A stretch of DNA of 64,000 nucleotides, taken from Clostridiales bacterium. GTDB taxonomy: Bacteria > Bacillota > Clostridia > Oscillospirales > Oscillospiraceae. Below, one piece after another: positions 40,395 through 44,692 of this stretch. How positions within the stretch are numbered: the first letter of the stretch is position 1; each line of letters begins with the position of its first letter. The position numbers and the translations under genes are program-made. The notes under the pieces are model-generated. The model ran no database searches, was not told the DNA's origin, and saw only the letters and a list, made by a program, of their open reading frames with translations. Where the stretch lies: positions 186,001 through 250,000 of the forward strand of contig JALFRA010000007.1 in the NCBI GenBank assembly GCA_022785125.1, in the 5' to 3' direction.

Positions 40395-40437
40395 CAAAAA
40401 AGCGGGCGCTCCCACAAATTTTGTGAGAGCGCCCGCT
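40395..40437 (-). terminator. Rho-independent terminator of the fusion/fprA operon
   Basis: AGCGGGCGCTC...ACAAA / TTTGT...GAGCGCCCGCT long stem with an A run 40395-40400 as T tail on the - strand. Confidence 0.92.
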
Positions 40438-40442
40438 AGGGC

Positions 40443-41654
40443 TTACTGCATGGACTCCACAATGGCGTCGGCCAGGGCTTCCAGTTCAGCGGCCTTGTCG
40501 GCCAGGAGGGCGGAGGCGATGGACAGCCGGTCATTGAGAACGGTCATGTTCTTCAGCTCCTCATCCACGAACTTCTGCATCAGGTCGCCGGATTTGGGGG
40601 CCCAGGAACCGTTTTCCACGATGGCGAAGGTGCGGTTCTGGAGGTTGAGCCCCTTCAGGTGCATGAGATAGTCGTGCATCACGGGGTAGATGCCCAGGTT
40701 ATAGGTGACGCTGGCCAGCACGATGTGGCTCAGCCGGAAGGACTCGCTGACCAGGTAGGACACATGGGTGTTGGACACGTCGTACACCCACACGTTGGTG
40801 ACGCCCTTCTCGCACAGCCTGGCGGCCAGGGCCTGGGCGGCGGCCTCGGTGTTGCCGTACATGGAGGCGTAGGCGATCATGACGCCCTTCTCCTCCGGCT
40901 CGTAGCGGCTCCACTTGTCGTACTTGTCGATGAAGTAGCCCAGGTCCTTCCGCCATACGGGACCATGGAGGGGGCAGATGTACTTGATCTGGTCCAGAAT
41001 GCCGCCGGCCTTCTTCAGCAGCAGCTGGATGTGGGGGCCGTACTTGCCCACGATGTTGGTGAGGTAACGGCGGGCGTCGTCGATCCAGTCCCGGTCAAAG
41101 TTGACCTCGTCGGCGAACAGCTTGCCATCCAGGGCGCCGAAGGAACCGAAGGCGTCGGCGGAAAAGAGCACGCCGTTGGTGGTGTCGAAGGTGACCATGG
41201 CCTCGGGCCAGTGGACCATGGGGGCGGCCACGAAGGTGACGGTGTGCTTGCCGAAGGTCTGGGTGTCCCCCTCCTTCACCTCGATGAGCTCATGGCCGTC
41301 GATCTGGAAGCCGAACTGGCGCATGAAGAGGAAGGACTTCTCGGTGGAGATCACCTTCACATCGGGCCAGCGCAGCAGGATCTCCTCGATGGAGGCTCCG
41401 TGGTCAGGCTCCATGTGGTTGATGACCAGGTAGTCCAGGGGCCGCTCCCCCAGCAGATGCTCCACGTTCTCCAGCAGCTGGCGGCAGGCGGACCAGTCCA
41501 CGGTGTCGAAGAGGACGGTCTTTTCGTCCAGCAGCAGATAGGCGTTGTAGCTGACGCCCCGGGGAATGGGATGGATGTTTTCAAACAGGTGGAGCCGGTG
41601 GTCGTTGGCCCCCACCCAGTACAGATCTTCCGTCACATTGCGGACACAATACAT
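40443..41654 (-). CDS. fprA: Flavodiiron protein FprA
   Basis: 403 residues. The N-terminal metallo-beta-lactamase-like domain holds the diiron ligands HMEPDH (HxExDH), H in MVHWPEAM, D in FSADAFGSF and H in CPLHGPVW. The C-terminal flavodoxin domain (MIAYASMYGNTEAAAQAL onwards) binds FMN. Such proteins reduce O2 to water, or NO to N2O, with electrons from rubredoxin. It lies 19 nt after a gene whose product ends in a rubredoxin domain. No rubredoxin of its own is fused. Confidence 0.94.
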   Translation of the reverse strand: MYCVRNVTEDLYWVGANDHRLHLFENIHPIPRGVSYNAYLLLDEKTVLFDTVDWSACRQLLENVEHLLGERPLDYLVINHMEPDHGASIEEILLRWPDVKVISTEKSFLFMRQFGFQIDGHELIEVKEGDTQTFGKHTVTFVAAPMVHWPEAMVTFDTTNGVLFSADAFGSFGALDGKLFADEVNFDRDWIDDARRYLTNIVGKYGPHIQLLLKKAGGILDQIKYICPLHGPVWRKDLGYFIDKYDKWSRYEPEEKGVMIAYASMYGNTEAAAQALAARLCEKGVTNVWVYDVSNTHVSYLVSESFRLSHIVLASVTYNLGIYPVMHDYLMHLKGLNLQNRTFAIVENGSWAPKSGDLMQKFVDEELKNMTVLNDRLSIASALLADKAAELEALADAIVESMQ

Positions 41655-41673
41655 GGTATTCCCTCCTTCTTAC

Positions 41674-43584
41674 TCAGGCTTCAATGAACATGTCTTTCTT
41701 TTCCGCGCACTCGGGGCACACCCACTCCTCGGGCAGGTTTTCAAACAGGGTGCCGGGAGCCACCTCGGCGTCGGGGTCGCCCAGCTCGGGCACGTACTCG
41801 TAGCCGCAGCCGCCGCAGACGTACCGCTTGCCGATGGGCTCGGGCTTGGGAGGCGCAGGGCGCTTCATCTTCACCATGGGAGGCGCGGGCTGCTTCTCCC
41901 CGGTGTCCAGGGCGGCGGCCAGCAGGGGCAGGATCTCGTTGACATCGCCCACAATGCCGTAGTCGCAGTTCTTGAAGATGGGGGCGTTGCCGTTCTTGTT
42001 GATGGCCACGATGGTGGAGGCGTCCTTGATGCCCTTCAGGTGCTGGATGGCGCCGGAGATGCCGCAGGCGATGTACAGGTTGCCCTTGAACTTCTGGCCG
42101 GACATACCCACATACCGGTCCAGGGGCACATACTTCAGGGTCTCGGCCACCGGGCGGGAGGAGCCAATGGCGGCGCCGGCGGCGCGGGCCAGGTTCTCAA
42201 TGAGCTTCATGTTCTTCTTGTCCCCGATGCCCTGACCGGCGGATACCACACGCTCGGCCTGGCTGATGGGAGTATCCATGGGGATGCCCACGGTAAAGTC
42301 ATGGCCGTCCTTCTTCAGGTGCTCCACCAGAGCATTGACCTGGTCGGCGGCACTCCCCTCCTTCAGCAGGATGCGCTTGCGCACGCCGGTGACGGGCGCG
42401 GGCTTCTTGGGCCGGCTGGAGGAGCCACCCTCGCTCTTGGGGGGCTTGCCCATGATGGCGGCGGAGATGACCACCCGCTGGATCTCGTTGGTGCCCTCGT
42501 AGATGGTGGTGATCTTGGCGTCCCGGTACATCCGCTCCACGTCCATACCCTTGAGGAAACCGGTGCCGCCGAAGATCTGGACGGCGTCGTTGGTGACCTC
42601 CAGGGCAATGTCGGAGGCATACATCTTGGCCATGGCGGACTCGGTGCCGTAGGGCTCATGATGTTCCTTCAGGTCGGCGGCAGAGTAGACCAGCAGCCGG
42701 GCGCAGCGGAGTTTGGTGGCCATGTCGGCCAGCTTGAAGCCGATGGACTGGTTGAAGCCGATGGGCTTGCCGAACTGGACCCGCTCCTTGGCGTACTCCA
42801 CGGCGGCCTCATAGGCCCCCTGGGCGATGCCCAGGGCCTGAGCCGCGATGCCGATGCGCCCGCCGTCCAGGGTGGACATGGCGATCTTGAAGCCCTGGCC
42901 CTCCTTGCCCAGCAGGTTCTCCTTGGGCACCTTCACATCGTTGAAGATCAGCTCGGCGGTGGAGGAGGAACGAATGCCCATCTTGTCGTAGTGATCGCCG
43001 AAGGTGAAGCCCTCCCAGCCCTTCTCCACGATGAAGGCGGAAATGCCCCGGGTGCCGATGTCGGGGGTGGTCACCGCAAAGACTACATAGGTGTCCGCTT
43101 TAGGAGCGTTGGTGATGAAGATCTTTCCGCCGTTGAGGAGCCAGTGGTCCCCCTTGTCCACAGCGGTGGTCTCGGTGCCGCCGGCGTCGGAACCGGCATT
43201 GGGCTCGGTGAGGCCGAAAGCGCCGATCTTCTCACCCTTGGCCAGAGGCACCAGATACTTCTGCTTCTGCTCCTCGGTGCCGTAGGCGAAGATGGGCCAG
43301 GAGCCCAGGGACACATGGGCCGACAGGATAACGCCGGTGCCGCCGTCCACCCGGGACAGCTCCTCTACCGCAATGGCGTAACTCAGGGCGTCCAATCCTG
43401 CGCCGCCGTACTCCTTGGGATAAGGGATGCCCATCAGCCCCAGCTTCCCCAGCTTTTTGATGGCCTCATCGGGGAACAGATTCTCCTTGTCCATCAGGAA
43501 TGCCTGGGGTTTCACCTCCGCCTCGGCGAAGGCCCGGATCTGGGCCCGCAGGGCCTCGTGTTGCTCCGTGGTCTTGAACAGCAT
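41674..43584 (-). CDS. Acyl-CoA dehydrogenase - ETF-alpha FAD domain - rubredoxin fusion
   Basis: 636 residues in three parts. Residues 1 to about 380 are an acyl-CoA dehydrogenase (GLTEPNAGSDAGG, DGGRIGIAAQALGIAQGA, and the base in IYEGTNEIQR). After a Ser/Lys/Pro linker, about 400-555 match the C-terminal FAD domain of ETF-alpha (ERVVSAGQGIGDKKN, AAIGSSRPVAE, LYIACGISGAIQHLKGIKD, AINKNGNAPIF). After a Pro-rich hinge the last about 50 residues are a rubredoxin (VCGGCGYEY and CPECAEKKDMF). The ETF-beta partner and ETF-alpha domain I are absent. Electrons from acyl-CoA could pass FAD to FAD to Fe(Cys)4 and then to FprA, coded next. The substrate chain length is unknown. Confidence 0.92.
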   Translation of the reverse strand: MLFKTTEQHEALRAQIRAFAEAEVKPQAFLMDKENLFPDEAIKKLGKLGLMGIPYPKEYGGAGLDALSYAIAVEELSRVDGGTGVILSAHVSLGSWPIFAYGTEEQKQKYLVPLAKGEKIGAFGLTEPNAGSDAGGTETTAVDKGDHWLLNGGKIFITNAPKADTYVVFAVTTPDIGTRGISAFIVEKGWEGFTFGDHYDKMGIRSSSTAELIFNDVKVPKENLLGKEGQGFKIAMSTLDGGRIGIAAQALGIAQGAYEAAVEYAKERVQFGKPIGFNQSIGFKLADMATKLRCARLLVYSAADLKEHHEPYGTESAMAKMYASDIALEVTNDAVQIFGGTGFLKGMDVERMYRDAKITTIYEGTNEIQRVVISAAIMGKPPKSEGGSSSRPKKPAPVTGVRKRILLKEGSAADQVNALVEHLKKDGHDFTVGIPMDTPISQAERVVSAGQGIGDKKNMKLIENLARAAGAAIGSSRPVAETLKYVPLDRYVGMSGQKFKGNLYIACGISGAIQHLKGIKDASTIVAINKNGNAPIFKNCDYGIVGDVNEILPLLAAALDTGEKQPAPPMVKMKRPAPPKPEPIGKRYVCGGCGYEYVPELGDPDAEVAPGTLFENLPEEWVCPECAEKKDMFIEA

Positions 43585-43616
43585 GGTGTCGTCCTCCTTG
43601 TCTTTATTTTAAATCA

Positions 43617-43633
43617 ATAATAAGAATCATTAT
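43617..43633. promoter_or_regulatory. PerR/Fur-like box between promoter and start of the fusion gene
   Basis: ATAATAAGAATCATTAT matches 15 of 17 positions of the classical Fur core ATAATGATAATCATTAT and shares the AT-rich dyad of PerR boxes. It lies about 10-25 nt downstream of the -10, where a bound repressor would block transcription. Confidence 0.6.
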
Positions 43634-43643
43634 TTGTGAGGCA

Positions 43644-43672
43644 ATCCTAACACAGTAAACACTGTATGTCAA
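43644..43672 (-). promoter_or_regulatory. Sigma-A promoter of the fusion/fprA operon with an internal dyad
   Basis: On the - strand TTGACA, 17-nt spacer, TAGGAT. The spacer is filled by ACAGTAAACACTGT (43652-43665), arms ACAGT/ACTGT, a second operator candidate. Confidence 0.78.
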
Positions 43673-43727: not shown

Positions 43728-43772
43728 GAACAGACAGCGCGTCCCACACTAAATGGGACGCGCTGTCTGTTC
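43728..43772 (-). terminator. Long hairpin after the ArsR gene
   Basis: 19-bp perfect stem GAACAGACAGCGCGTCCCA and its complement with a 7-nt loop; only a short T stretch follows, so it may act as terminator or RNA stabiliser. Confidence 0.7.
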
Positions 43773-44067
43773 ATTGGGCGCAATATTGTTCTTTCAGCAC
43801 TGCCATCAGGGCCTGAAGGCGGCTGTCTTTGATGGAATAGGTGACGAACTGTCCGTGCTTCTCCCCCTGGACCAGTCCCCCATCCTTCAGCTTGTGCAGG
43901 TGCTGGGACAGGGCGGGGCCGGTGATGTTGGGCACGCTCTCCCCCAGCTCCCCTACGGTTTTAGGTCCGTCCAGCAGAGCGCACAGGATGAGCAGCCGAT
44001 TCTCGTTGGCCATCTGGGCCATCAGCGAAGCGATGGTTTGGGCCTTTTCCCGCAGTTGTTCGTCCAT
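43771..44067 (-). CDS. ArsR family transcriptional regulator
   Basis: 98-residue winged-helix regulator (ANENRLLILCALLDGPKTV, LGESVPNITGPALSQHLHKL, GGLVQGEKHGQFVTYSI). No clear metal-binding CxC in the recognition helix, so the signal may not be arsenic; single cysteines are at ILCALL and YCAQ. ATG at 44067 with GGAGG 7 nt upstream. Last gene of the ferredoxin/NapH-like operon, which it probably represses. Confidence 0.88.
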   Translation of the reverse strand: MDEQLREKAQTIASLMAQMANENRLLILCALLDGPKTVGELGESVPNITGPALSQHLHKLKDGGLVQGEKHGQFVTYSIKDSRLQALMAVLKEQYCAQ

Positions 44068-44071
44068 ATGC

Positions 44072-44692
44072 TCACCTCCGGCAGCCGGAGCAGGAGGCGC
44101 AGCCTTCCGCCGGAGCCTTGCCCGCACGCAGGGTGCAGATCAGCTGGGTCATGGTGCCCATGGGGCAGAATACGCACCAGGTCCGGGGCTTAAACAATAC
44201 CATGACAATGAGGCCGATGAGGGTAGAGGTGAGCATGATGGAGTAGAACCCGAAAGCGAACTGGGCCACCCAGGGGGCAAAAAGGGTACCGTGATAGGCC
44301 CAGTGCCAAGGCACCTGGAAGGTCCAGAACAGCTTGACGAACGCTCCAATGTCTTTGGCGCCCACCCCTACCAGGTAGGTGGTAAAGAGCATCTGGAAGA
44401 ACATGAGGAAGAAAAAGATGAGAAAGCCGTACCGGAATGCTTTGGTCCGCATCCACCGGGGAGTGGGCTTGTTCCGGGACAGCTTTAGCCGCCCACCCAG
44501 CAGGGACAGGAACTGGCCCCTGTCGCAGTAGCGGTTGCAGTACAGCTTGCTGCCGCCGAAGATGGCGATGAGCAGGGGCAGACAGAAGAAGATCATGCCC
44601 AGCCAGGCAAAGAGGATATTGAAGAACCCCAGTCCCAGATAGATGGGGGTGACGATCCACAGATAGTCGTACCAGTGCTTTTTCTGGTTCAT
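44072..44692 (-). CDS. NapH/YccM-like 4Fe-4S membrane protein
   Basis: 206 residues with four to five membrane segments (IYLGLGFFNILFAWLGMIFF, FLIFFFLMFFQMLFTTYLVG, SIMLTSTLIGLIVMVLF). Cysteine motifs CNRYCDRGQFLSLLG and WCVFCPMGTMTQLIC face the same side, as in NapH, where they take part in electron transfer, but the two C-terminal ferredoxin motifs of NapH are missing; the tail CASCSGC adds three cysteines. Its start overlaps the separate 67-residue ferredoxin, which may supply the missing clusters. Confidence 0.82.
   Translation of the reverse strand: MNQKKHWYDYLWIVTPIYLGLGFFNILFAWLGMIFFCLPLLIAIFGGSKLYCNRYCDRGQFLSLLGGRLKLSRNKPTPRWMRTKAFRYGFLIFFFLMFFQMLFTTYLVGVGAKDIGAFVKLFWTFQVPWHWAYHGTLFAPWVAQFAFGFYSIMLTSTLIGLIVMVLFKPRTWCVFCPMGTMTQLICTLRAGKAPAEGCASCSGCRR

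Follow-up and report, generated by a model that had tools for sequence, protein, structure and literature searches.

In the window, by which we mean the whole stretch of 64,000 nucleotides of Clostridiales DNA analysed here, two ORFs lie side by side on the minus strand. The upstream one (41674..43584) encodes a 636-aa fusion of an acyl-CoA dehydrogenase, the FAD domain of ETF-alpha and a rubredoxin, and the downstream one (40443..41654) encodes FprA, a two-domain flavodiiron protein of 403 aa, both being assigned from the ORFs and Pfam. They are separated by a gap of 19 nt (41655-41673), and a consensus scan places a terminator-like hairpin of 17 pairs with a T-run 3' of fprA on the same strand (40401..40437). 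The original prediction, made from the DNA letters, had put both ORFs exactly where they are found, 19 nt apart and ahead of a shared terminator. The same scan detects a promoter-like site upstream of the fusion (TTGACA-17-TAGGAT, 10/12; 43644..43672, minus strand). In shuffled versions of the region such scans return on average 2.9 terminator-like and 0.8 promoter-like sites, against the four and two found. The next gene upstream (43771-44127; Pfam) belongs to the ArsR family; since it is set off from the fusion by a weaker terminator-like site (43751-43735; consensus scan), we infer that the fusion and fprA form a transcription unit of their own. The ArsR-family ORF overlaps the end of a further ORF with a weak match to a 4Fe-4S domain (Fer4_5), the two together spanning 43771-44692.

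A Pfam search of the fusion recovers the Acyl-CoA_dh_N (residues 6-118), Acyl-CoA_dh_M (122-217) and Acyl-CoA_dh_1 (229-377) domains, which make up a dehydrogenase part encoded at 42454..43569 (minus strand), followed by the FAD-binding ETF_alpha domain (440-520; 42025..42267, minus strand) and a C-terminal Rubredoxin domain (587-633; 41686..41826, minus strand). The other ETF domain, PF01012, is absent among the seven Pfam families listed for the protein at an E-value of 0.001. Hence, the fusion carries only the FAD domain of ETF-alpha, as had been claimed: where a bifurcating Bcd-ETF has a complete ETF with PF01012 domains and a beta-flavin site, the fusion has PF00766 alone. The ETF part that has no counterpart in the fusion is the one that holds the beta-flavin. 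The nearest solved chain of the dehydrogenase part is 5ol2_C (500.7 bits), which we take to be the Bcd of C. difficile, and 31 acyl-CoA dehydrogenase or ETF models of NCBIfam match the protein, none of the 25 listed scoring over its cut-off. An AlphaFold2 model of the fusion built from 17 aligned sequences has a mean pLDDT of 49.1 and a pTM of 0.44 and was set aside.

A scan of genome contigs with the window fusion gave 347 relatives, and the analysis covered the best 80 of them. All 80 match it over the full length with 83-99% identity, which argues that the fusion is not a chance product. The closest of these 80 are records of Pseudoflavonifractor and Flavonifractor (96-99% identity), and the set also includes Intestinimonas, Agathobaculum, Butyricicoccus, Oscillibacter, Faecalibacterium, Anaerostipes and Sinanaerobacter. 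The fusion is directly followed by fprA on the same strand at 77 of these loci, and the remaining three (L037, L064 and L074) lie on contigs that break off no more than 90 nt beyond it. The spacing between the two genes ranges from 12 to 568 nt, with a median of 23 nt, and is at most 87 nt in 64 of the 77 loci. When the C-terminal part of the fusion was used as a query, it was found in 27 of 394 genomes of the window's order (its own included), aligned along almost its entire length with 73-99% identity; the match ranking next in this survey has 52% identity and is confined to the ETF part. In a draw across the phylum with a stricter cut-off it was found in 5 of 398 genomes, again including its own. 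The distribution of the fusion is thus patchy, while the protein is strongly conserved where it is found.

The window fusion was aligned with those of the 80 loci. Glu363 in the IYEGTNE segment, presumably the catalytic residue of the dehydrogenase part, and the four rubredoxin cysteines (Cys590, Cys593, Cys623 and Cys626) are identical in all 81 sequences. In FprA, Pfam identifies an ODP domain (residues 35-231) and a Flavodoxin_1 domain (260-369) and finds no rubredoxin domain. The flavodiiron residues H80, E82, D84, H85, H148, D167 and H230, which we take to be the diiron ligands, are all present in the window protein and identical in 73 of 73 FprA sequences (the window and 72 loci). The other eight loci fall outside this alignment: three have no fprA sequence, four are cut by the contig end and one (L015) was dropped. 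At L015 (7935-9121) the fprA frame stops after 97 aa and similarity runs on to the contig end, possibly through a fault of the metagenome assembly. These alignments bear out the original reading of the glutamate segment, the rubredoxin cysteines and the diiron residues as intact, and the outcome that it had itself named as refuting, homologues of the fusion without fprA nearby, did not arise in the pairing counts given above (77 of 80, the other three being cut by contig ends).

Of the positions checked in the ETF-alpha domain by alignment with solved chains, eight of nine are identical in all 81 fusions. Only position 451 varies. It is Gln in the window, and across the 81 sequences K occurs 45 times, Q 34 times and V twice; in the four solved ETF-alpha chains listed, the equivalent position is the Arg of a GRG segment. 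This Arg probably tunes the ETF flavin. The QTG segment of the solved chains listed is MSG in 81 of 81 fusions. Residues 449-453 and 493-496 thus lack the GRG Arg and have MSG for QTG throughout the set, and this combination is possibly a sequence signature of the type of system to which the pair belongs.

The observation behind the original prediction is real, and the system is of a known kind, already described as BOOR (butyryl-CoA oxygen oxidoreductase). We had entertained the pair as a new electron line to O2, and dropped this because BOOR was described in 2024 (Bystrom and Wolthers, Biochemistry 63:2352, as cited in PMC12288474). By the account in the portions of PMC12288474 available to us, BOOR of F. 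nucleatum consists of a Bcd domain, the C-terminal part of EtfA and a rubredoxin fused in one protein, and of a flavodiiron protein (FN1423) encoded beside it as the other gene of the pair; the two form an alpha4beta4 complex with butyryl-CoA-dependent O2 reduction, which reduces O2 to water and has no NO reductase activity. The same 2025 review states that butyrate-forming gut Firmicutes encode BOOR, and the available part of PMC12630350 names FN1423-FN1424 as BOOR beside lactate-driven butyryl-CoA formation. The window pair displays the corresponding sequence features: the fusion of a Bcd-type dehydrogenase, the ETF-alpha FAD domain and a rubredoxin (Pfam), an adjoining gene for a two-domain flavodiiron protein (Pfam and ORFs), and the intact Glu, rubredoxin Cys and diiron residues (alignment). 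We therefore assign the pair with high confidence, on sequence grounds, to BOOR, with the fusion as its BCR subunit.

In the proposed mechanism, the dehydrogenase part would form crotonyl-CoA by oxidising a short acyl-CoA, which is most likely butyryl-CoA. Electrons would leave the dehydrogenase FAD for the ETF-alpha FAD in the same polypeptide, move on to the fused rubredoxin and finally enter the separately encoded FprA, whose FMN and diiron centre would receive them and where O2 would be reduced to water. Because the rest of the ETF is missing, the fusion would perform no bifurcation and would require neither NADH nor free ETF; the independence from both that was originally envisaged fits this absence of the ETF part with the beta-flavin in the Pfam results. 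By analogy, we infer that the window copy would share substrate, direction and product with the F. nucleatum enzyme, and it is very likely, judging from the genes, that the pair uses butyryl-CoA to turn O2 into water in what is probably a gut anaerobe.

The butyryl-CoA assignment derives from similarity, with none of the 25 listed NCBIfam models over its cut-off, and one might accordingly consider a variant in which the dehydrogenase part acts on a different acyl-CoA, still coupled to O2. We consider this unlikely: the best solved match is 5ol2_C, the architecture is the same as that of the butyryl-CoA enzyme for which assays are reported in PMC12288474 as available to us, and the identity of at least 83% over the best 80 of 347 loci suggests one common substrate.

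The electron acceptor calls for similar scrutiny, as the pair had originally been proposed to couple acyl-CoA oxidation to the removal of either O2 or NO. The solved proteins nearest to FprA in sequence were deposited as a nitric oxide reductase (1ycf) and an anaerobic nitric oxide reductase flavorubredoxin, names that would suit a system in which acyl-CoA drives mainly the reduction of NO. However, a rubredoxin:oxygen oxidoreductase (1e5d) is also among these solved relatives. Moreover, a second flavodiiron protein of the genome (contig C4), which has its own C-terminal rubredoxin unlike the window FprA, could fill an NO role. Since the F. nucleatum complex reduces O2 and lacks NO reductase activity, according to the portions of PMC12288474 at hand, homology supports the O2 branch of the proposal but not the NO branch; a main role in NO reduction appears scarcely probable.

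A further alternative reverses the flow, with a rubredoxin reductase feeding the rubredoxin domain and the fusion reducing crotonyl-CoA to butyryl-CoA. Rubredoxin potentials lie close to -10 mV. The potential of the butyryl-CoA/crotonyl-CoA couple, given as -10 mV in the available text of PMC12288474, is near these, and because of this closeness the step between crotonyl-CoA and rubredoxin would be reversible in principle. Against this, the tight pairing with fprA (77 of 80 loci, from the best 80 of 347) argues for O2 as the final acceptor, and the genome has further dehydrogenase-ETF loci available for crotonyl-CoA reduction; we hold the reverse direction to be very unlikely and retain the oxidation of butyryl-CoA at the expense of O2 as the preferred reading.

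The genomic context of the pair beyond the window is consistent with such a role. On three other contigs of the genome (C17, C29 and C35) an acyl-CoA dehydrogenase and ETF-alpha are encoded near each other, those on C29 reading as consecutive genes for the dehydrogenase, ETF-beta and ETF-alpha, and an Rnf cluster is recognisable from matches to RnfC, an RnfD-type protein, two Rnf-Nqr membrane subunits and an iron-sulfur subunit. By these sequence matches, the other parts of a proposed BOOR/Bcd-ETF/Rnf cycle are present in the genome. The crotonyl-CoA produced by BOOR could be reused by Bcd-ETF with Rnf, and O2 removal would therefore cost little energy.

We also examined how the pair might be regulated. 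According to the available text of a 2026 preprint (PMC13404960), the BOOR pair of gut Clostridia, namely Roseburia, Eisenbergiella and Faecalibacterium, adjoins a gene for an Rrf2-family regulator. In the window, the gene upstream of the fusion is of the ArsR family, and two BOOR-linked Rrf2 proteins used as seeds find no Rrf2 gene at an E-value of 1e-5. Elsewhere in the genome, four of five Rrf2-like loci were compared and none matches these seeds at 1e-5; the same holds for both Rrf2 proteins of the genome that score above the cut-off of the family. What a motif scan does detect, just downstream of the promoter-like site, is a Fur/PerR-like inverted repeat, AATAATGATTCTTATTATT (43616..43634, minus strand). 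The repeat resembles the Fur-family box consensus. It is the one match without mismatches in the genome and the sole match with fewer than three; five further matches have three mismatches, and the reversed control gives one match.

Extending these comparisons to the best 80 of 347 loci, we observed an Rrf2 gene just upstream of the fusion at 38, counted with the same two seeds, and the box at 15 others in addition to the window. The box was counted at up to four mismatches to RATAATGATTCTYATTATY and starts 44-56 nt ahead of the start codon; its count leans upward because these very loci supplied the consensus. The two never occur together (0 of 80), and 27 loci have neither. Five loci have less than 350 nt of upstream DNA, too short for a whole Rrf2 gene, and for these the absence of Rrf2 is thus unsupported; one (L005) belongs to the 15 box-bearing loci and four (L016, L028, L069 and L076) belong to the 27 with neither. 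At up to four mismatches, the box arises in 7 of 1600 mononucleotide and 10 of 1580 dinucleotide shuffles; at up to two, it is found in 11 of 79 upstream regions (one too-short region being left out) and in none of 1580 dinucleotide shuffles. Hence, the regulation of BOOR looks, from these sequences, to be split between Rrf2 and the box.

The genome encodes two Fur-family proteins, on contigs C10 and C40. The one on C10 is PerR-like, its best solved match being the peroxide operon regulator 2fe3 (67.6 bits) with Fur next (66.4 bits). Its gene stands in a row with genes for desulfoferrodoxin and a rubrerythrin-like protein, the latter named by reading its sequence, and is preceded by the inverted repeat AACAGTAATAGTTACTGTT. 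Repeats of varying form precede the PerR-like gene in 20 of 20 genomes of the same genus, some of them being AACAGTAATGATTACTGTT, and the hexamers AGTAAT/ATTACT are common to these and to some of the BOOR boxes, though at a different spacing. The idea that the BOOR repeat is simply the ordinary PerR box of the genome was not confirmed, and this simple reading is weakened because the repeat before the PerR-like gene is related to it but not the same. Inspection by eye of the neighbours of box-type loci, in longest-ORF calls that are often in the wrong frame, found no regulator common to them. We tentatively suggest, as a possibility short of being the favoured outcome, that in the window's clade BOOR is under a Fur-family protein acting through a putative operator at 43616-43634 and not under Rrf2, that Rrf2 and the box replace each other across gut Clostridia, and that acyl-CoA-driven O2 removal would be switched on by peroxide or iron and not by way of an Fe-S sensor. 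The PerR-like protein encoded with desulfoferrodoxin is the likelier of the two candidates. Control of BOOR by PerR is offered as a hypothesis; we found no mention of it in the accessible portions of the BOOR literature, the PerR literature being only partly covered.

Taken together, these observations bear on a system with which a fermenting anaerobe would destroy O2 using electrons from butyryl-CoA instead of NADH. As argued in the available part of PMC12288474, such O2 removal saves energy and lowers butyrate output under O2, and the oxygen tolerance of butyrate producers would thereby be linked to the butyrate they release. Tight conservation of the pair is confirmed across the best 80 of 347 relatives. 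What the present analysis adds is little: the other parts of the BOOR/Bcd-ETF/Rnf cycle in the genome, and the apparent split in regulation. All but the possible change of regulator was already met in the portions of the BOOR literature at our disposal.

Finally, the pair may be set against related systems. With 5ol2, presumably the bifurcating Bcd-EtfAB complex of C. difficile, the window fusion shares a related dehydrogenase and the ETF-alpha FAD domain; unlike it, the fusion lacks the PF01012 part of the ETF, has a rubredoxin added and, as in all 81 fusions, has K, Q or V in place of the GRG Arg. The flavodiiron protein and Hrb of Moorella thermoacetica offer a parallel in that the former likewise receives its electrons from a rubredoxin domain attached to a flavoprotein; by the account in the available portions of PMC12288474, however, the electron source there is NADPH, whereas acyl-CoA is predicted for the window pair, and the Moorella work cited in it has NO reductase activity in its title. 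BOOR of Roseburia, Eisenbergiella and Faecalibacterium, as described in the available text of PMC13404960, comprises the same gene pair in gut Clostridia, but with an adjoining Rrf2 gene of a kind not found in the window. FN1423-FN1424 of F. nucleatum has the same domain order and two-gene arrangement by the descriptions in the available portions of PMC12288474 and PMC13404960, although the window copy comes from another phylum and its activity is predicted.
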